Shown here: positions 9,445 to 63,693 of the stretch, one piece after another
Position numbering within the stretch: the first letter of the stretch is position 1
How the letters are laid out: each line of letters starts with the position of its first letter
Source of the DNA: Lutimonas zeaxanthinifaciens
GTDB taxonomy: Bacteria; Bacteroidota; Bacteroidia; Flavobacteriales; Flavobacteriaceae
Assembly (NCBI RefSeq): GCF_030503675.1
Contig: NZ_CP129964.1
Span: 1,984,001 to 2,048,000, forward strand
Length of the DNA stretch: 64,000 nt
Direction: 5' to 3'
Position numbers and translations under genes: made by a program
The notes under the pieces: model-generated
What the model was told of the DNA's origin: nothing
Database searches by the model: none
Seen by the model: only the letters and a program-made list of their open reading frames with translations

Positions 9445-10731
9445 TCATATAACAAGTGAAGAAGCGAACAATGGCTTATCCTGCATCATTTTGTTAACCT
9501 TTTGAGCCACAGATTCTAAAACACTATCATCCTCAAAATCAAGGATTACTTCATCAATGAGATCCACTACGGCCTGCATGTCCGACTCTATGAGCCCTCT
9601 GGTTGTAATGGCTGCAGAACCAATTCTGATTCCAGAAGTGATAAAAGGTGATTTATCGTCAAAAGGCACCATATTCTTGTTCACTGTAATATCAGCTTTC
9701 ACCAAAGCATTTTCTGCTTCCTTTCCTGTGATATTTTTATTTCTTAAATCGATGAGCATCATATGATTGTCGGTTCCTCCCGAGATAATATGATAACCTT
9801 TCTCAACAAAAGCCTTGGCAAGGGCTGCTGCATTTTTCTTTACCTGAATCTGATAATTTAAAAATTCATCGGTAAGTGCCTCTCCAAAAGCTATGGCCTT
9901 GGCAGCAATGATGTGCTCTAAAGGACCGCCCTGGATTCCAGGAAAAACCGCAGCGTTCAAAATTGTACTCATCATTTTCACCTTTCCCTTGAGGGTTGTC
10001 TCACCCATTGGATTCTCAAAATCTTTTCCAAGCATGATGATACCTCCTCTGGGTCCTCTCAGGGTCTTATGAGTTGTGGTAGTTACAATATGGCAATGAG
10101 GAATAGGATCGTTCAGAATTCCTTTGGCGATAAGTCCGGCTGGATGTGAAATGTCTGCCAGTAAGATGGCTCCTACACTATCTGCAATTACTCTAAAACG
10201 TTTAAAATCAATATCTCTTGAATAGGCTGAAGCACCAGCAATAATTAATTTGGGTTTTACTTCGTCAGCTTTTTCCTGTATTTTATCATAATCCAGAACA
10301 CCGGTTTCCTTATCTACTCCGTAAAAAGCTGTCTTATAAAGTTTTCCTGAAAAATTAACCGGAGATCCATGAGTCAAGTGCCCTCCGTGTGAAAGGTCAA
10401 ATCCTAATATCTGATCACCCGGCTTTAAGACGGCCTGAAAAACAGCTGTATTTGCCTGAGAACCCGAATGAGGCTGAACATTGACATATTCGGCATTGAA
10501 AAGTTCCTTTGCTCTGTCAATGGCAATTTGTTCAATCTGATCGACAATCTCACATCCCCCGTAGTATCTTTTCCCGGGGTAACCCTCTGCATATTTATTG
10601 GTTAAAATGGATCCTGCAGCTTCCATAACCTGTTCGCTCACATAGTTTTCTGAAGCTATTAACTCTAAACCATTTGTTTGTCTTTCTCTTTCCTCTGAAA
10701 TCAGGTCAAAAATTATTTGATCTCGGCTCAT
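9445..10731 (-). CDS. glyA: serine hydroxymethyltransferase
   Basis: Interconverts serine and glycine while loading tetrahydrofolate with a one-carbon unit. 428 residues from the ATG giving [11 protein letters not shown]; a start 12 codons upstream is possible but adds a non-conserved leader. Seen: [20 protein letters not shown] (substrate and THF site), [11 protein letters not shown], and [14 protein letters not shown] with the PLP-binding Lys. Single gene; nearest neighbours are the GCS2-CBS unit downstream and fumarylacetoacetase, divergent, upstream. Confidence 0.97.
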
Positions 10732-55250: not shown

Positions 55251-55940
55251 TTAATAGCCCTCTGTGAGGTGTTGAAGTTTTACTTTGTCTTCGATTCTTA
55301 TTTTCTTTCCTTGCAAAGAAATATAACCTTCTTTCTTAAATTCAGATAACAGACGAATTGTCGATTCAGTAGCAGTTCCAATGGCATTAGCAATTTCCTC
55401 TCTCGTGAGGGTCACCGAGATATATCCATCTTTATCTACTCCAAAAATTTTATCAAAAAATAAGAGAGATTCTGCCAACCTCTCTCTCACATTTTTTTGC
55501 GCCATATTGGCAATTGAGGAGTTCGCCTCATCAAGATCCTCAGCCAATGATTTAGTGATCTCCATGGAGAATTCAGAATTATTCTTAAAAAGTTCCAATA
55601 TCTCGTGTTTGGGTATAAAACAGACATCCATCTCTTCCAATGCAGTAACCGTTAAATGTGCCACAGAATTACTTATAACTGATCTGTGACCTACCAATTC
55701 GCCTCTTCTGATAAACCTGACAATTTGCTCCTTTCCGTTTGGTGCGAGCTTCGTTAATTTACATTTACCGTTTCGCAAACAATAAACGCCTCTCAAGGAT
55801 GTTCCTTCACTGAAAATCACCTCCCCTTTCTGAATATGAAGTGAGGATTTTTTCTTCGCTATTTGATGTAACTCTCTACCAGTTACAGAACTTAAGGAAT
55901 TCAAATCTCTGATTACGCATTTTTCACAATCTTCTTTCAT
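55251..55940 (-). CDS. Crp/Fnr-family transcription regulator, Fnr-like
   Basis: 229 residues: cyclic-nucleotide-type beta-roll (residues about 30-120), dimer helix, and C-terminal HTH (LTREEIANAIGTATESTIRLL). N-terminal Cys5 and Cys8 align with FNR Cys20 and Cys23, and Cys107 (DVCFIP) with Cys122, but the position of Cys29 is Asn14. So three of four FNR iron-sulfur ligands are present, plus Cys54 and Cys60. In the recognition helix Glu192 and Arg196 match FNR Glu209 and Arg213, while Ser212 is Ile195. Divergent from ccoI, hence the likely microaerobic controller of the cbb3 cluster. Confidence 0.9.
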   Translation of the reverse strand: MKEDCEKCVIRDLNSLSSVTGRELHQIAKKKSSLHIQKGEVIFSEGTSLRGVYCLRNGKCKLTKLAPNGKEQIVRFIRRGELVGHRSVISNSVAHLTVTALEEMDVCFIPKHEILELFKNNSEFSMEITKSLAEDLDEANSSIANMAQKNVRERLAESLLFFDKIFGVDKDGYISVTLTREEIANAIGTATESTIRLLSEFKKEGYISLQGKKIRIEDKVKLQHLTEGY

Positions 55941-55962
55941 AAATGTTAGGGTTGTTTTTTTG

Positions 55963-55970
55963 CAAATTTA
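55963..55970 (-). promoter_or_regulatory. candidate -7 box for the Crp/Fnr gene
   Basis: Minus strand TAAATTTG, exact TAnnTTTG, 23 bases before the ATG. No FNR-like palindrome seen in this 103-base divergent gap. Confidence 0.45.
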
Positions 55971-56043
55971 TATAAATTATAATATCATTCATTTTTTTAT
56001 CTAATTTTTTTATAAGAAATTTACCCAATTTTTCCAGGGATCT

Positions 56044-58419
56044 ATGTCGAAAGAAAACTGCTACCACTGCGGTCTTGATTGTAATGATGAAAGGATTGAA
56101 TTTGATCAAAAATCGTTTTGTTGCAATGGATGCAGGACCGTTTACGAAATTCTAAATCAGCACCAGCTCACAGGTTATTACGACCTGGAATCCAATCCCG
56201 GAACCGCTCCAAAAGACATCAAGGGAAAATTTGACTACCTCGATAATGAGGATATCGCGGCGCAATTGATCGAGTTCGATGATCAAGAAACAGCTGTAGC
56301 CAATTTTTACATTCCAACTATACATTGCAGTTCGTGTATCTGGGTTCTGGAAAATCTTCACAAGCTAAATGGCGGTATCAAAATAGCCTTGGTTAATTTT
56401 CCAAAGAAGGAGGTTCGAATTACTTTTCGAAAAGGCGAAATTTCATTGAAGCAGGTAGTCGAGCTCATTGCCTCCATTGGGTACGAACCCTACATAAGTC
56501 TTGATTCGACTGATGTTAAATCGGAGAAGACTGATCGTAAACTGATCTATCAGGTAGCCATCGCAGGTTTTGCATTTGGCAATGTCATGATGCTTTCTTT
56601 TCCTGAGTATTTTCAAATGGATGAGTATTGGCTGAATCGATTCAAACCCTTTTTCAGAGGACTCATGTTTTTGCTGTCGCTGCCGGCACTTCTCTATTCA
56701 GGCCGGGATTACTTTATCTCCGCTTTCAAAGGGCTACGGCATGGTATCCTTAATATTGACGTACCCATTTCTCTTGGAATTTTGGTTCTTTTTTTTAGAA
56801 GTTCCTATGAAATTATCTCTCAAACGGGACAAGGATATTTCGACAGTCTCACTGGGCTTATTTTCTTCTTGCTGCTCGGAAAGATTTTCCAGCAAAAAAC
56901 CTATGGTTTTTTATCTTTTGAACGAGATTATAAATCTTACTTCCCCATTGCCGTTACCCGGATTGCAGGAGATAAAGAAGAACAGAACATCAGTGTCCAT
57001 GAAATACAACAGGGAGATCGGCTGTTGATAAGAAACGATGAGATAATTCCAGTTGATGGCATACTAATCAGTAAGCAAGGCATGATCGATTATAGTTTTG
57101 TCACAGGAGAATCAATACCAGTTTCAAAAAGATCAGGTGATAAATTATTTGCAGGTGGAAAGCAAACACAGGGCGCACTGGAAATGGAGGCTATTGAGAC
57201 GGTCAAGCAAAGTTATCTCACACAACTTTGGAGTCATGACGTTTTTAAAAAAGAGAACCCGAAGAACATAAAATCACTTACAGATTCCATCTCAAAACAG
57301 TTCACAATAATCATTTTATCCATTGCGTTCATATCTGGAATCTATTGGTATTTTCAGGATAAAAGCGCCGCCTTTCAGGTGGTTTCCGCCATATTGATCA
57401 TTGCGTGTCCCTGCGCACTTGCATTATCTGCTCCATTTTCTCTGGGAAATATGATCCGATTATTCGGAAAAAATAAATTTTATCTCAAAAATACAGCGGT
57501 TATTGAGTCAATGGCCAAAGTAGGTACCATAGTTTTTGACAAAACTGGAACAATAACTTCAAATCGAAAATCGGAAATAGTATATGAAGGAAAGGAGCTT
57601 GAAAATACCGAGCTAAGGATGATTAAGACCATACTGCGTTCATCAAATCATCCCCTGAGCCGGATTCTTTATGATCAAATCCATAGTAGTGAATTAGGAG
57701 AATTAACCCAGTTCAAAGAATTCACTTCAAAAGGAATAGAAGGAAAAATTGATGAAAAAAGAATTTTACTCGGTTCTTCCTCATTCGTCGGACTTGAAGA
57801 TAAAGAAGGACTTGATACTTCGGTTTACGTCAGTATTGATGACAAAGTGAAAGGTAAATTCGTTTTCAAGAATGCATACAGAAAAGGCCTCCGGGATATG
57901 ATTAAAGAACTTGACCTTAAATATCATATTTCATTGCTATCCGGAGACAATGAAGGGGAAAAAATAAGGCTTGAAGAACTCTTACCGGAGATTGACCAAC
58001 TCCTTTTCAATCAAAAGCCTGAGGACAAGCTTGAGTTTATCAAATCCATACAGGAAAATAAAGAACATGTAATGATGTTGGGTGACGGGCTGAACGATGC
58101 AGGTGCACTGGCTCAAAGCAATGTTGGTATTGCAATTTCTGAAAACATCAATGTTTTCTCTCCTGCCTGTGATGCTATTCTTGATGCCAGCAAATTTGAT
58201 CAGTTACCCATGTTTCTGAAATTGAGCAAGTCAACAATTGGAGTGATCAAGGCGAGTTTTGTCATTTCTTTTCTGTACAATATCATCGGCCTTGTTTTTG
58301 CCGTTAGCGGTAACCTTTCTCCGATTGTGGCAGCCATTTTAATGCCAATTAGCTCAATTTCAGTAGTTCTGTTTGCTACGGTCAGCACGAATATTTTAGC
58401 AAAAAAAATACTATCTTAG
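56044..58419 (+). CDS. ccoI: cbb3 oxidase assembly copper-transporting P-type ATPase
   Basis: 791 residues. N-terminal Cys-rich zinc-like domain (CYHCGLDC, FCCNGCRTVYE), HMA domain with HCSSCIWVLE, eight predicted membrane segments, CPC motif at Cys455-Pro-Cys457 (ACPCALALSAPF), phosphorylated Asp499 in FDKTGTITSN, and hinge GDGLNDAGAL. FixI/CcoI exports copper for the cbb3 oxidase. First gene of the cco cluster. Confidence 0.94.
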   Translation: MSKENCYHCGLDCNDERIEFDQKSFCCNGCRTVYEILNQHQLTGYYDLESNPGTAPKDIKGKFDYLDNEDIAAQLIEFDDQETAVANFYIPTIHCSSCIWVLENLHKLNGGIKIALVNFPKKEVRITFRKGEISLKQVVELIASIGYEPYISLDSTDVKSEKTDRKLIYQVAIAGFAFGNVMMLSFPEYFQMDEYWLNRFKPFFRGLMFLLSLPALLYSGRDYFISAFKGLRHGILNIDVPISLGILVLFFRSSYEIISQTGQGYFDSLTGLIFFLLLGKIFQQKTYGFLSFERDYKSYFPIAVTRIAGDKEEQNISVHEIQQGDRLLIRNDEIIPVDGILISKQGMIDYSFVTGESIPVSKRSGDKLFAGGKQTQGALEMEAIETVKQSYLTQLWSHDVFKKENPKNIKSLTDSISKQFTIIILSIAFISGIYWYFQDKSAAFQVVSAILIIACPCALALSAPFSLGNMIRLFGKNKFYLKNTAVIESMAKVGTIVFDKTGTITSNRKSEIVYEGKELENTELRMIKTILRSSNHPLSRILYDQIHSSELGELTQFKEFTSKGIEGKIDEKRILLGSSSFVGLEDKEGLDTSVYVSIDDKVKGKFVFKNAYRKGLRDMIKELDLKYHISLLSGDNEGEKIRLEELLPEIDQLLFNQKPEDKLEFIKSIQENKEHVMMLGDGLNDAGALAQSNVGIAISENINVFSPACDAILDASKFDQLPMFLKLSKSTIGVIKASFVISFLYNIIGLVFAVSGNLSPIVAAILMPISSISVVLFATVSTNILAKKILS

Positions 58420-58446: not shown

Positions 58447-58468
58447 AAACATGATTTTTATCATGTTT
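58447..58468. promoter_or_regulatory. near-FNR palindrome between ccoI and ccoS
   Basis: AAACATGAT and ATCATGTTT, perfect 9-bp arms around TTTT. The core TGAT-N4-ATCA matches the FNR core with A/T swapped at the outermost positions (ATGAT-N4-ATCAT against TTGAT-N4-ATCAA). Centre 58457.5. It could also be an RNA hairpin. Confidence 0.5.
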
Positions 58469-58514
58469 CTGCTTTCTTACTTTTTGTTAATTTGTGCAAC
58501 TAAAAAAATCAGTA

Positions 58515-58706
58515 ATGAATATAATATTCATGCTCATCATTGCAAGTCTTGTCATTGCAGTTATTTTTTTTATTTTATTTGTCAAATCGGTCAGGACCGG
58601 TCAGTATGATGACGTATACACGCCATCTGTACGTATGCTGTTTGACGATGAACTGGTTGAAGACAAATCATCCGGCAAAAAAAGCAATCAAAATTCAATC
58701 AACTAA
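58515..58706 (+). CDS. ccoS: cbb3 oxidase assembly protein CcoS
   Basis: 63 residues from the ATG giving MNIIFMLIIASLVIAV; an ATG 7 codons earlier is possible. One N-terminal membrane helix, then GQYDDVYTPSVRMLFDDEL, the CcoS signature. Needed for cofactor insertion in the oxidase. 21 bases before ccoNO. Confidence 0.92.
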   Translation: MNIIFMLIIASLVIAVIFFILFVKSVRTGQYDDVYTPSVRMLFDDELVEDKSSGKKSNQNSIN

Positions 58707-58727: not shown

Positions 58728-60872
58728 ATGGAAAAAGAACAATTTTATTACGACAACAAAATAGTAAAAATGTTTCTTATTGCCACCATTCTTTGGGGTG
58801 TGGTGGGAATGCTGGTGGGGCTTATCGTGGCCTTGCTTTTTATTTTCCCGAATTTATTGGAAGGTATATCATGGCTTAGTTTTGGTCGAATCAGACCTCT
58901 TCATACGAATGCTGTGATTTTTGCTTTTGTTGGGAACAGCATTTTTATGGGTATTTATTATTCGATGCAGCGCTTGCTAAAGACAAGAATGTTCAGCGAT
59001 ACGTTGAGTAAAATTCATTTTTGGGGATGGCAATTAATTATCGTTGCGGCAGCAATTACACTTCCGCTCGGAATTACAAGTTCTAAAGAATATGCCGAAC
59101 TCGAATGGCCGATTGACATTGCCATAACGCTTATCTGGGTGGTGATGGGAATCAATATGATCGGGACGATCTTAAAAAGACGACAAAGACATATTTATGT
59201 TGCCATCTGGTTTTATCTGGCTACACTTATTACGGTTGCTGTTTTACATATATTCAACAATCTTGAATTACCGGTTACCGGATTTAAAAGTTATTCTATT
59301 TACGCGGGGGTTCAAGATGCCTTGGTACAATGGTGGTATGGCCACAATGCGGTCGCCTTCTTTTTAACAACTCCTGTTCTGGGGCTCATGTATTACTTTG
59401 TTCCCAAAGTAGCCAACAGACCTGTTTATTCTTACAGATTATCCATCATACATTTTTGGTCACTGATCTTTATTTACATCTGGGCAGGACCTCACCATCT
59501 TTTGTACACAGCGCTTCCTGAATGGGCACAAAACCTGGGAACCGTTTTTTCTGTTATGTTAATTTTCCCTTCCTGGGGTGGTATGATCAACGGTTTACTT
59601 ACCCTAAGAGGAGCTTGGGACAAGGTAAGAGAAGATCCGGTACTGAAGTTCTTTGTTGTTGCAATTACAGGTTACGGTATGTCTACATTTGAAGGGCCGA
59701 TGCTTTCATTTAAAACCCTAAACGCCATCGGGCATTATACGGACTGGATCGTTGGTCACGTTCATATTGGTGCACTTGCCTGGAACGGGTTTATGGCTGC
59801 AGGTATCATTTACTGGCTGGCGACAAAGCTTTGGAAAACAGATCTCTATTCTAAAAAGCTGGCCAATATTCATTTCTGGCTGGGAACGCTGGGTATTCTG
59901 TTTTATGCCTTACCACTTTATGTGGCCGGATTTACACAGGCTGCCATGTGGAAGCAATTTAATCCTGACGGAACCCTAGTTTATGGAAACTTTTTGGAAA
60001 CTGTAACACAGATTATGCCTATGTACATGATGCGTGCTTTCGGGGGAACTTTATACCTCGCAGGATTCATTTTGCTGGCTTATAATGTGATCAAAACGGC
60101 CAAGGCAGGATCTGTCGTTGAAGATGAACTGGCTGAGGCAGCTCCGTTGAAGAAAATCTCTCCGGCAAGAGTTGCAGGAGAAGGATTCCATTCATGGCTG
60201 GAAAGGAGAACGATCCTATTTACCTTCCTTGTTGTAATAGCGATTGCTATTGGAGGAGCCGTGGAAATTATCCCTCTATTGACGGTTGATTCGAATATTC
60301 CTAAAATCACTTCTGTTAAACCATATACTCCGCTTGAATTGGAAGGTAGAGACATTTATATAAGAGAAGGATGTAACAACTGTCATTCTCAGATGATTCG
60401 CCCTTTCCGTTCAGAAGTGGAACGTTATGGTGAATACTCCAAGGCAGGTGAATTTGTTTATGACTTCCCATTCTTGTGGGGATCTAAGAGAACAGGTCCT
60501 GATGTGCACAGGGTCGGAGGTAAATACAATGACAACTGGCACTTTAACCATATGCTGGATCCCAGGACAACGTCTCCCGGCTCTATAATGCCTCAATACC
60601 CTTGGTTAATTACTGATGATCTTGATGTATCTCAAACGGTTAACAAGGTGAATGCCATGGTTACCCTGGGCGTTCCATATACACAATTTGAATTAGACAA
60701 GGCAGTATATCTTTTGCAGAATCAGGCAAAAGAGATTGAAAACAGCTTAAGGCAGGATCCTGAGTTTGTAAAGAACTACGGTAACTCTGAGATAGAAAAG
60801 AAGGAAATTGTAGCGCTTATAGCTTATTTACAACGATTAGGAACCGATATCAAGGCAGAGGCCGAGGAATAA
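58728..60872 (+). CDS. ccoNO: cbb3-type cytochrome c oxidase, fused subunits I and II
   Basis: 714 residues. The N-terminal ~490 are CcoN, with WWYGHNAVAFFLTTPVLG (heme-copper ligands) and HHLLYTALP; the C-terminal part is CcoO, with the heme-c site at Cys549-x2-Cys552-His553 in GCNNCHSQMIRPF and a further Met-rich ligand region. In Proteobacteria these are separate genes; fusion is common in Bacteroidetes. Terminal oxidase with high oxygen affinity, proton pumping in the inner membrane. Confidence 0.95.
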   Translation: MEKEQFYYDNKIVKMFLIATILWGVVGMLVGLIVALLFIFPNLLEGISWLSFGRIRPLHTNAVIFAFVGNSIFMGIYYSMQRLLKTRMFSDTLSKIHFWGWQLIIVAAAITLPLGITSSKEYAELEWPIDIAITLIWVVMGINMIGTILKRRQRHIYVAIWFYLATLITVAVLHIFNNLELPVTGFKSYSIYAGVQDALVQWWYGHNAVAFFLTTPVLGLMYYFVPKVANRPVYSYRLSIIHFWSLIFIYIWAGPHHLLYTALPEWAQNLGTVFSVMLIFPSWGGMINGLLTLRGAWDKVREDPVLKFFVVAITGYGMSTFEGPMLSFKTLNAIGHYTDWIVGHVHIGALAWNGFMAAGIIYWLATKLWKTDLYSKKLANIHFWLGTLGILFYALPLYVAGFTQAAMWKQFNPDGTLVYGNFLETVTQIMPMYMMRAFGGTLYLAGFILLAYNVIKTAKAGSVVEDELAEAAPLKKISPARVAGEGFHSWLERRTILFTFLVVIAIAIGGAVEIIPLLTVDSNIPKITSVKPYTPLELEGRDIYIREGCNNCHSQMIRPFRSEVERYGEYSKAGEFVYDFPFLWGSKRTGPDVHRVGGKYNDNWHFNHMLDPRTTSPGSIMPQYPWLITDDLDVSQTVNKVNAMVTLGVPYTQFELDKAVYLLQNQAKEIENSLRQDPEFVKNYGNSEIEKKEIVALIAYLQRLGTDIKAEAEE

Positions 60873-60884
60873 AACAGAGGGATT

Positions 60885-61076
60885 ATGTTAAAATTTATAA
60901 AACACCATTTAGATTCGATGACAGGGGTTGAAATATATCCTATCATCTCGCTGCTTCTCTTTTTCCTTGTTTTTACGACAATGTTGATCATTGTTCTGAA
61001 AATGCCTAAAAAGAATATTGATAAACTAAGTAATTTACCATTAGATAACGATATAAAAAACAATAATCATGAGTGA
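60885..61076 (+). CDS. ccoQ: cbb3 oxidase subunit CcoQ
   Basis: 63 residues: one membrane helix (about residues 18-40, IYPIISLLLFFLVFTTMLI) with a charged C-tail (KMPKKNID). CcoQ stabilises the oxidase. Starts 12 bases after ccoNO and overlaps ccoP by 8 bases. Confidence 0.88.
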   Translation: MLKFIKHHLDSMTGVEIYPIISLLLFFLVFTTMLIIVLKMPKKNIDKLSNLPLDNDIKNNNHE

Positions 61077-61707
61077 TCAAAAACAAATAAGTGGTTGGAA
61101 AAAATTCCTTCAGTCTATGACCAAGGCTCATGAACTTGGTAAAGAAGAAGAGATCATGACCGATCATGACTATGACGGAATAAAAGAATTGGACAACGTT
61201 CTTCCACCCTGGTGGAAATATGGATTTTACATCACCATTGCCATTGGTATTTTCTATTATGTTCAGGTCTTCACAAATTCTGAAGAATACAGCCAGGAAA
61301 AAGAATATGCGGCAGAGGTCGAAAAAGGAAAACAAGAGGTGGAAGCCTATAAAGCAGCCAATCCCGAGCTTTTTAAACTGGATGCGACCCTATTAACTGA
61401 TGATGCCAGCCTTGCGGCCGGCCAGAAAAATTTCGAAGCCTACTGTGTTGCCTGTCATATGGCAGATGGAGGGGGTGGAATCGGACCCAATCTAACCGAT
61501 GATCATTGGATTCTTGGAGGAGGAATGGAAAATATTTTAAAGACACTCAATGAAGGTGGCCGTGCCGGAAAAGGTATGATCTCCTGGAAAAATACATTTA
61601 ATAATGATGAACTTCAGCAACTTGCCAGTTATGTGATTTCCTTGAACGGAACTACACCGGCCAATCCTAAAGCAGCTGAGGGAGACATCATTTGGAGCAA
61701 ACAGTAG
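61069..61707 (+). CDS. ccoP: cbb3 oxidase subunit III with a single heme-c domain
   Basis: 212 residues. N-terminal charged segment, one membrane helix around 45-65 (WWKYGFYITIAIGIFYYVQ), then one cytochrome-c domain with Cys126-x2-Cys129-His130 (CVACHMADGGGG) and Met ligand in GRAGKGMISWK. Proteobacterial CcoP usually has two hemes in about 290-310 residues; only one is present here. Receives electrons from small c-type carriers. Confidence 0.92.
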   Translation: MSDQKQISGWKKFLQSMTKAHELGKEEEIMTDHDYDGIKELDNVLPPWWKYGFYITIAIGIFYYVQVFTNSEEYSQEKEYAAEVEKGKQEVEAYKAANPELFKLDATLLTDDASLAAGQKNFEAYCVACHMADGGGGIGPNLTDDHWILGGGMENILKTLNEGGRAGKGMISWKNTFNNDELQQLASYVISLNGTTPANPKAAEGDIIWSKQ

Positions 61708-61825: not shown

Positions 61826-63232
61826 ATGAGTATTAATGAACAGGAAAATTTTAGAGACAGCATTGCTACTATTGACAAGGAAGGAAAAAGAAATTTTATT
61901 CATCCTAAAAAGCCAAAGGGGCGCTACACCTCATACCGCACCTATGTCAGCTGGTTTCTACTGGCAATACTATTCGCTTCTCCCTTTATAAAGATCAATG
62001 GTAATCAGTTCTTACTATTCAATATTATAGACCGGAAGTTTAATATTTTTGGACAGCCTTTCTGGCCTCAGGATTTTTATCTGCTCGTGTTATCCTTATT
62101 GGTTTCGGTTGTTTTTATCATTCTGTTTACTGTCATTTTTGGACGGATCTTTTGCGGATGGATGTGTCCTCAGACCATTTTTATGGAAATGGTTTTTCGA
62201 AAAATTGAATATTGGATCGAAGGGGATCGCAACAAACAGATTAAACTTTCCAAACAATCATGGAACGCTGAAAAGATAAGAAAAAAAACAGTTAAATGGT
62301 TTTTGTTTGCTTTGGTATCCTTTATGATTGCCAATGCATTTTTAGCCTATTTCATTGGGGGTGACGTACTGATTCAGCATGTCAAAGACGGGCCTTTGGC
62401 GCATGTTGACACCTTTCTTAAACTCCTTGTATTCACCACTGTTTTTTATTTTGTTTTTGCCTGGTTCAGGGAACAGGTATGTATCATCGCTTGCCCTTAC
62501 GGAAGGCTCCAAGGGGTTCTTTTGGATAACAAGTCGATTGTTGTGGCATACGATCACAAACGAGGAGAAAACCGTCAAAAACTAAGAAAGAAAGAAAACA
62601 GAGAAGAAAAATCCTACGGGGATTGTATTGACTGCAAACAATGTGTTTTGGTTTGCCCTACAGGTATAGATATAAGAAACGGTACTCAATTGGAATGTGT
62701 TAATTGTACGGCTTGTATTGATGCCTGTGATGACATAATGGATACTGTGGGATTTGACAGAGGCCTTATCAGGTATGCCTCTGAAAACAATATTGAAAAA
62801 GGTGAAAAGTTTTCGTACAATGCCAGAATCAAAAGTTATATTGTAGTACTTACCCTGCTCCTGACGTTTTTAGTAACTTTGCTGTTTCTCAGAAATGATG
62901 TTCAGGCAAATTTCCTTCATCTCCCGGGACAGCTGTATACCACTGAAGGAGAAACTATAAGAAATGTTTATACATTTAAACTGATTAATAAAACGAACAA
63001 TCCTTATGAGGATATTGACATTCAACTCATGTCTCATGAAGGAAAGATTGAAGTCGTTGGTGGCCAGATCAACATACCAAAAGGAGGGCTTTATGAAGGA
63101 ACCCTTTTTGTTAAGATCGACAAAAGTGAATTATCCTCTTCAAAGGAAAAAATTGAATTGGGAATATATGCAGATGGAGAATTAATTGAAGAATCTCACA
63201 CAAATTTTTCTTCTCCACTGCAGGTTAAATAA
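61826..63232 (+). CDS. ccoG: cbb3 oxidase accessory protein CcoG (FixG)
   Basis: 468 residues. About five membrane segments; CGWMCPQTIFME near residue 110 and CIIACPYGRLQG around 225, then a two-cluster ferredoxin domain CIDCKQCVLVCPTGIDI and CVNCTACIDAC. C-terminal immunoglobulin-like periplasmic domain. CcoG helps reduce copper for the oxidase. Continues the operon after the hairpin. Confidence 0.93.
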   Translation: MSINEQENFRDSIATIDKEGKRNFIHPKKPKGRYTSYRTYVSWFLLAILFASPFIKINGNQFLLFNIIDRKFNIFGQPFWPQDFYLLVLSLLVSVVFIILFTVIFGRIFCGWMCPQTIFMEMVFRKIEYWIEGDRNKQIKLSKQSWNAEKIRKKTVKWFLFALVSFMIANAFLAYFIGGDVLIQHVKDGPLAHVDTFLKLLVFTTVFYFVFAWFREQVCIIACPYGRLQGVLLDNKSIVVAYDHKRGENRQKLRKKENREEKSYGDCIDCKQCVLVCPTGIDIRNGTQLECVNCTACIDACDDIMDTVGFDRGLIRYASENNIEKGEKFSYNARIKSYIVVLTLLLTFLVTLLFLRNDVQANFLHLPGQLYTTEGETIRNVYTFKLINKTNNPYEDIDIQLMSHEGKIEVVGGQINIPKGGLYEGTLFVKIDKSELSSSKEKIELGIYADGELIEESHTNFSSPLQVK

Positions 63233-63240
63233 TAGAAAAT

Positions 63241-63693
63241 ATGAAGATACGATTGAATTGGGGAACCGGAATATTCCTGGCCATGCTGGCTTTTATGATC
63301 TTTATTTTGACTTTTGTTTATAAGTCGATCGCCATGGATGAATACCAGCATGAACTGGTATCTGAGGACTATTACAAAGATGAGCTCCACTATCAGGAAG
63401 AGATCGACAAGATCAATAATGCCAAGGAACTGGATGAAAACATTGAACTCGCTAATAGCGGTGAAGGTATTTTGATAAAATTTCCAAAAGAAGTTTCAAT
63501 GGAAGACATTTCGGGAACAATATATTTTCAGAGGCTTTCGAACGAAAAACTTGATTTTATTGAAGAAATACAGTTGGATGATCATAAACAATTGATCAGT
63601 TCAGAAAAACTGGTTTCCGGAAAATGGATTGTAAAAATTGATTGGAAGAATAAGGATAAGGAGTACTTGTTTAAAGATTCCTGGTTTTATTAA
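63241..63693 (+). CDS. ccoH: FixH/CcoH family protein
   Basis: 150 residues: N-terminal membrane helix (GTGIFLAMLAFMIFILTFV), then an extended region with YQHELVSEDYYKDELHYQEEID (in pieces: VSEDYYKDELHYQ), the FixH signature, and a periplasmic beta domain. Stabilises the cbb3 complex. Starts 8 bases after ccoG. Confidence 0.9.
   Translation: MKIRLNWGTGIFLAMLAFMIFILTFVYKSIAMDEYQHELVSEDYYKDELHYQEEIDKINNAKELDENIELANSGEGILIKFPKEVSMEDISGTIYFQRLSNEKLDFIEEIQLDDHKQLISSEKLVSGKWIVKIDWKNKDKEYLFKDSWFY

Follow-up and report, generated by a model that had tools for sequence, protein, structure and literature searches.

A conserved palindrome before ccoS as the predicted site of an FNR-like regulator, and a candidate low-oxygen regulon in Flavobacteriaceae

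The cbb3 oxidase genes of Lutimonas zeaxanthinifaciens, whose genome assembly consists of a single 3.53-Mb contig, form a cluster within the stretch of 64,000 nucleotides analyzed here (hereafter, the window). The order is ccoI, ccoS, a fused ccoNO, a small ORF at the position of ccoQ, ccoP, ccoG and ccoH, and a gene for a Crp/Fnr protein, here called regulator A, is divergent from ccoI. A gap of 95 bases separates the stop codon of ccoI (58419) from the ccoS ATG (58515), and a palindrome sits in it. The features of the locus, in window coordinates, are the following.

55251 to 55940, minus strand: FNR-like regulator A, 229 amino acids, with a cNMP-type domain and a Crp helix-turn-helix; C5, C8, C54 and C107; helix ATESTIR
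55941 to 56043, no strand: divergent intergenic region between A and ccoI; a box is present in most relatives and absent in the window
56044 to 58419, plus strand: ccoI, a FixI-type P-type ATPase (PF00122, PF12156), upstream of the palindrome and not under its control
58447 to 58468, no strand: predicted palindromic operator AAACATGAT-TTTT-ATCATGTTT, core ATGAT-N4-ATCAT at 58451 to 58464, centre at 58457.5, which corresponds to -41.5
58487 to 58494, plus strand: predicted sigma-A -7 box TTAATTTG, with five of the six defined bases of TAnnTTTG and separated from the core 14-mer by 22 bases
58499, plus strand: predicted transcription start, 16 nt before the ccoS ATG, placed from the sequence and PMC9723704 by taking the final G of the -7 box as -5
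58515 to 58706, plus strand: ccoS (FixS, cbb3 oxidase maturation; PF03597), first gene of the predicted transcript
58728 to 60872, plus strand: ccoNO, fused CcoN-CcoO catalytic subunits of the cbb3 oxidase (PF00115 and PF02433)
60885 to 61076, plus strand: small ORF assigned to the ccoQ place by position only, with no Pfam match
61069 to 61707, plus strand: ccoP, cytochrome c subunit (PF14715, PF13442)
61826 to 63232, plus strand: ccoG, FixG-like ferredoxin-type maturation protein (PF11614, PF13746)
63241 to 63693, plus strand: ccoH (FixH; PF05751)

Direct reading of 58447-58468 confirmed the perfect 9-bp inverted repeat with TGAT-N4-ATCA described in the initial annotation, its arms lying at 58447-58455 and 58460-58468 around a 4-base loop. 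The palindrome by itself is not significant, since 0.70 perfect 9-bp repeats with such a loop are expected per 64-kb window (Markov-1, 20 simulations) and one was seen; the case therefore rests on conservation and phasing. ATGAT-N4-ATCAT was found twice in the window against 0.31 expected, and near-matches to TTGAT-N4-ATCAA in the window stay at the background level (10 vs. 8.1). The second ATGAT-N4-ATCAT, at 9435-9448, has no -7 box at the fixed spacing. Three features do exceed chance: the conservation before ccoS, the fixed spacing to the -7 box both here and genome-wide, and the fact that the ccoS palindrome is the sole perfect match to ACATGAY-N4-RTCATGT (ACATGAYNNNNRTCATGT) in the 3.53-Mb genome. 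When two mismatches or fewer are allowed, the whole genome has 82 places with this pattern, vs. 22 with the reversed one.

A ccoN match was found in 92 of 100 relatives, and the region upstream of ccoS was read in 44 of these 92, namely 30 loci from the ccoN search and 14 hand-chosen ones, including genomes without the neighboring regulator. In 35 of the 44 genomes, the script found TGAY-N4-RTCA followed, after a gap of precisely 22 bases measured from the 14-mer, by a -7 box that keeps five or more of its six defined bases. On reading, G013 and G028 also keep core and spacing, the script having chosen the wrong ATG there; the site of G028 lies 248 bases before ccoN. The site is lost in G024 and G060, and the gap is 21 or 23 in a few of the 44. 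Among 80 named loci, the script found ccoS in 65, of which 58 keep the core, seven lack the exact core, and 44 combine core, spacing and a box of at least five of six bases. The initial annotation had staked its proposal on conservation in relatives, and both sets bear it out. For the alignment, 41 22-mers were taken from the 44 genomes (G024, G028 and G060 left out), and one that was out of register was dropped. In the remaining 40 palindromes, TGA and TCAT are invariant and the outer base of the right half is always T, whereas the outer left base varies (A in 30, C in nine and T in one). The box is ATGAY-N4-RTCAT rather than strictly the ATGAT proposed earlier, and the left half at ccoS is mostly ATGAC (C in 29/40).

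The -7 box of the window is imperfect, and beyond the genus most relatives have a perfect TAnnTTTG at the matching position. Positions -12 to -5 are occupied by the sigma-A -7 box in F. psychrophilum (PMC9723704); applied here, this puts G58494 at -5, a predicted start near 58499 and the palindrome centre at -41.5. The centre and the final G of this box are a fixed 37 bp apart. With its operator centre at -41.5 and fixed relative to the core promoter, the site would have the geometry of a class II promoter of the CRP/FNR type, and the class II activator position of about -41.5 to -43 suggested in the initial annotation holds for the predicted start. A different motif, TAnnTTGY (SM5 in PMC9723704), fits TAATTTGT at 58488-58495 and would shift the start to 58500 and the centre to -42.5. 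This reading is disfavored, since TAnnTTTG is what stands at the fixed spacing in most relatives from other genera. A scan for sigma-70-type promoters was also run, its model being uninformative for Bacteroidota promoters.

The same phasing recurs across genomes. When ATGAY-N4-RTCAT was allowed to stand 5-35 bases (31 allowed gaps) before TAnnTTTG in the 100 relatives, 545 matches were obtained vs. 64 for the reversed pattern; among 150 of the 545, the gap was 22 in 89, 23 in eight, 21 in five and 34 in five, and any other gap occurred at most four times. A search with a constant gap and any outer base yielded 707 phased sites vs. 10 reversed in the 100 relatives, and among 147 of the 707 (one row each of G070, G086 and G095 left out) the right outer base was T in 97, A in 20, C in 15 and G in 15. 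The genome of L. zeaxanthinifaciens itself has 20 phased sites vs. none reversed, 17 with gap 22 and three with gap 21; the ccoS site is outside these 20 because of its -7 box TTAATTTG. Phased motifs of the type TGAYNTAGGTCAA, nearer to the classical FNR/DNR box, were seen in G034, G035, G043, G053 and G072, and their reader is perhaps another Crp/Fnr paralogue. Another variant, GTGAT-N4-GTCAC with equal spacing (G000:C1:1183738-1183781, L120), lies directly behind a Crp-type gene (L113) and before a gene for a YgaP-like membrane protein.

An ORF follows 18 of the 20 own-genome sites, four of these 18 without a Pfam match. Directly behind phased sites lie nuoA (NADH dehydrogenase chain 3), hemA (glutamyl-tRNA reductase), pyruvate phosphate dikinase and a paired-CXXCH cytochrome; further targets are two NHL proteins, a YgaP-like membrane protein, an OMPP1-family protein, MlaE, a CobW/HypB protein, an FAD oxidoreductase with a sulfide-dehydrogenase-like domain, a glyoxalase-family protein and a fasciclin protein divergent from an Rrf2 regulator. 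For the relatives, 60 phased sites were picked by hand from 14 other genomes, 55 with an ORF behind them and five without. Among the 55 are cytochrome c (nine), hemN (seven), thioredoxin_9 (four) and pyridine-nucleotide oxidoreductase (three), and, twice each, pyruvate formate-lyase, NadA, phosphate acetyltransferase (Pta), the Cu nitrite reductase NirK, Rrf2 and others. Judged by predicted sites, the downstream genes have the make-up of an FNR-type low-oxygen regulon, comprising cbb3 oxidase, hemN and anaerobic or microaerobic enzymes. The cbb3 oxidase and haem synthesis enzymes of F. psychrophilum are reported to be strongly up-regulated under oxygen limitation (PMC9723704). For the internal oxygen-regulated cco promoter proposed in the initial annotation, the regulon content fits control by oxygen, and a response of this promoter to oxygen is predicted.

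Regulator A, the divergent neighbor, has the CRP/FNR architecture (PF00027, PF13545 and PF00325), and its orthologues were found in 65 of 100 relatives (E <= 1e-40), with 98% identity in Lutimonas saemankumensis and 93% in L. halocynthiae. Cys5, Cys8, Cys54 and Cys107 are invariant in 81/81 sequences (80 named loci and the window), and Cys60 is kept in only 72/81. Of 20 further A-like proteins (one being a second copy in G083), 16 have all four cysteines and four, all of family f5, have none; such an all-or-nothing pattern is as expected of cluster ligands. The group defined by E <= 1e-40 includes these four (G064, G077, G088 and G096; L227, L222, L226 and L231), which keep the helix ATESAIR and may represent a FixK-like offshoot; phased sites are present in the four f5 genomes despite their Cys-less proteins. 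G079 has A and no phased site. The box core also occurs before A itself, in the A-ccoI region, in 68/80 named loci vs. one for a control pattern, so that A is probably autoregulated. In the window and its closest named relatives (L236-L240) this box is absent, and the autoregulation site was probably lost in Lutimonas.

Comparison with FNR brings out both the relationship and the departures. The AlphaFold2 model of A (pLDDT 85) has the CRP/FNR fold, matching FNR (PDB 5e44) with a TM score of 0.85 in Foldseek; its best match is the P. gingivalis Crp/Fnr protein (PDB 2gau), the nearest solved structure with 31% identity over the fold match, whose recognition helix differs from that of A in the alignment. 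In canonical FNR, cysteines 20, 23, 29 and 122 hold an oxygen-labile [4Fe-4S] cluster on which dimerization depends. In the alignment with A. fischeri FNR, the CxxC pair Cys5 and Cys8 and the "VC-IP" Cys107 of A fall on ligands 20, 23 and 122 in this numbering, while Cys29 is replaced by Asn and Cys54, invariant in A, is new and lies in the beta-roll; thus, three positions of the canonical four-Cys set are kept. An Fe-S cluster on Cys5, Cys8 and Cys107, with Cys54 in place of FNR Cys29, is probably the oxygen sensor of A. As in FNR of E. coli and A. fischeri, the helix keeps Glu and Arg, the box has N4 geometry and lies at -41.5, and the targets include hemN, PFL and cbb3-type genes. Unlike FNR, A scores 98.3 bits against an NCBIfam Fnr cut-off of 228, its helix is E-S-x-I-R in 81/81 rather than E-x-x-S-R, and its box is not TTGAT-N4-ATCAA, RTCAT outnumbering RTCAA by 97 to 20 in the 147 phased sites mentioned above. 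FNR uses Glu-209, Ser-212 and Arg-213 in its helix (PMC4505428), and helix residues and box bases co-vary in the CRP/FNR family (Rodionov et al., PMC1274295). In the T-E-S-x-I-R helix of A, E192, the following Ser, I195 and R196 are invariant in 81/81. The invariant Ile at the place of Ser-212 fits the altered outer base suggested in the initial annotation, with the reservation that the residue before Glu differs as well (Thr vs. Val in FNR), so that either residue may read this base.

A may not be the only protein that reads the box. Regulator B, a receiver-cNMP-Crp fusion (G000:C1:221046-222074), is encoded away from cco, and its gene has a PAS histidine kinase gene and usp genes as neighbors. 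The kinase before B (L196:776-2017, L199:3502-5010) may be FixL-like around the haem histidine. In rhizobia, the FixK/FixLJ circuit activates the cbb3 operon through a CRP/FNR-type protein; activation of this type is predicted here as well, and a PAS kinase accompanies a receiver-Crp protein, with the differences that receiver and Crp are fused in B and that A has cysteines of its own. Among the 100 genomes, phased sites number 354 in the 23 with both A and B, 267 in the 42 where A but not B was detected, 76 in the nine where B but not A was detected, and 10 in the 26 with neither, never more than one per genome in this last group; absence of B is weak evidence in these counts, since 21 candidates were scored in many genomes. 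With genomes treated as independent of relatedness, phased sites per Mb differ between genomes without A or B and the rest (Mann-Whitney p = 5e-12; within the family, where five genomes lack both, p = 1e-4). Phased sites occur in the absence of A in six genomes with a completeness of 88% or more (G028, G043, G047, G051, G056 and G060), and all of these genomes except G060 keep the phased box before ccoS; A is thus not the sole possible reader. In the Lutimonas-like genus, genes beside B (around G000:C1:222100-224465, L196 offsets 3101-5465; L316, L318-L329) carry tandem TGAY-N4-RTCA exactly 22 bp apart, the second often at the -41.5 spacing. Such pairs number 23 vs. 0 reversed in the own genome, and by eye 50 of 54 listed pairs in G004, G013 and G017 show this spacing.

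It might therefore be asked whether the ccoS box is read mainly by B. Outside the Lutimonas clade, the helix of B is mostly A-ET-LIR, sharing E--IR with A; a phased site directly follows B in several genomes; and B without detected A goes with the 76 sites and five phased ccoS boxes just described. Against this stand the 267 sites in genomes where A occurs and B, which may be missed, was not detected, the position of A as divergent neighbor of cco, and the clade nearest to the window, where the helix of B is AKETLTR and its boxes are tandem while that at ccoS is single. To see whether the helix reads the outer base, the LTR and LIR forms of B were compared: the outer base on the left is T in 41/59 with LTR and 24/44 with LIR, and that on the right is A in 26/59 and 5/44, a comparison that the tandem boxes confound. 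Since A adjoins cco, the box is single and the helix of B has changed, A is favored, and we consider a main role of B at ccoS unlikely; we infer that A rather than B acts there. Of the earlier proposal that the neighboring Crp/Fnr protein reads the box, A as the most probable reader is retained, while exclusive reading is not, as B with its E--IR helix could share the box and the box may serve two sensors. The signal to which A answers could also be NO or general redox state, as for DNR, NnrR and HcpR, so that nitrosative or redox stress would switch cco on. NO can react with sensors based on Fe-S or Cys, and two NirK-type nitrite reductases and Rrf2 regulators are among the targets. The main targets, however, form a low-oxygen set made up of cbb3 oxidase, hemN, PFL, Nuo and cytochromes, and hcp is absent from the target families listed. 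HcpR, DNR and NnrR do have FNR-like palindromes with an N4 spacer, but these are TTGAC-N4-GTCAA (HcpR), TTGAT-N4-ATCAA (DNR) or GTAAC-N4-GTTAC instead of ATGAY, and their regulons centre on hcp and denitrification (PMC1274295). We regard this signal as quite improbable for A.

A carbon-sensing role, as of MalR, would rest on a Flavobacteriales CRP/FNR homologue from a reactor metagenome, not necessarily an orthologue of A, which was placed near MalR with such a role proposed (PMC8510549). For A this is very unlikely, given its four invariant cysteines, a regulon of low-oxygen type and the cco cluster on its divergent side. The palindrome might instead act in RNA, as a terminator after ccoI or a hairpin in the ccoS leader, and the strand does fold into a 9-bp stem (energy z -1.88). 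But of the 40 palindromes, only 20 have a standard stem pair at 4-19, 30 at 5-18 and 21 at 9-14, with no compensating changes; the terminator scan detected no terminator-like site at the palindrome, and a hairpin would fall upstream of the predicted start. Because TGA and TCAT stay constant while stem pairs are broken without compensation, a protein-binding site is indicated, and the RNA hairpin was rejected as extremely improbable. That the palindrome is a mere accident of an AT-rich spacer agrees with the 0.70 repeats expected per 64 kb, and in view of the conservation in relatives and the phasing it is scarcely credible.

Taken from the site, its conservation, the fixed -7 spacing, the regulon content, the co-occurrence with A or B and the invariant cysteines and helix, the palindrome is, with good confidence, a predicted binding site of a dimeric FNR-like CRP/FNR regulator, most probably A, which would be a class II activator of the ccoS promoter and probably an Fe-S oxygen sensor. 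In this mechanism, A would sense oxygen through an Fe-S cluster on Cys5, Cys8, Cys107 and Cys54, bind the palindrome at -41.5 under low oxygen, and read ATGAY-N4-RTCAT with the helix E192-S-x-I195-R196. Bound A would then act on sigma-A RNA polymerase as a class II activator, a type that touches sigma and alpha, with a start near 58499, and the activated transcript would cover ccoS, ccoNO, the putative ccoQ and ccoP, and probably also ccoGH.

In the literature searched, which left subscription papers mostly outside, no description of such a box or regulator in Flavobacteriaceae was found. The data are best read as an FNR-like oxygen regulon that would span the Flavobacteriaceae, use the variant box ATGAY and probably rely on an altered set of Fe-S ligands. 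A bolder form, which we put forward tentatively and rate at somewhat below even chances, is a global low-oxygen regulon of the family in which one box (ATGAY-N4-RTCAT at -41.5) serves two independent E--IR sensors, an FNR variant whose ligand moved from the N-terminal loop to Cys54 of the beta-roll and a PAS-kinase/receiver-Crp fusion, that swap between genera, the fusion having split off in the Lutimonas clade with tandem boxes at a spacing of exactly 22 bp. Seas, soils and fresh water all hold Flavobacteriaceae in abundance, and the oxygen control of this family seems little studied. If the reading is true, an oxygen regulator, its box, the promoter geometry and the regulon would be obtained together; FNR-type sensing would be seen with a rearranged ligand set; and Ile in the helix with an outer A:T would add a further helix-to-base case to the known co-evolution of the CRP/FNR family.
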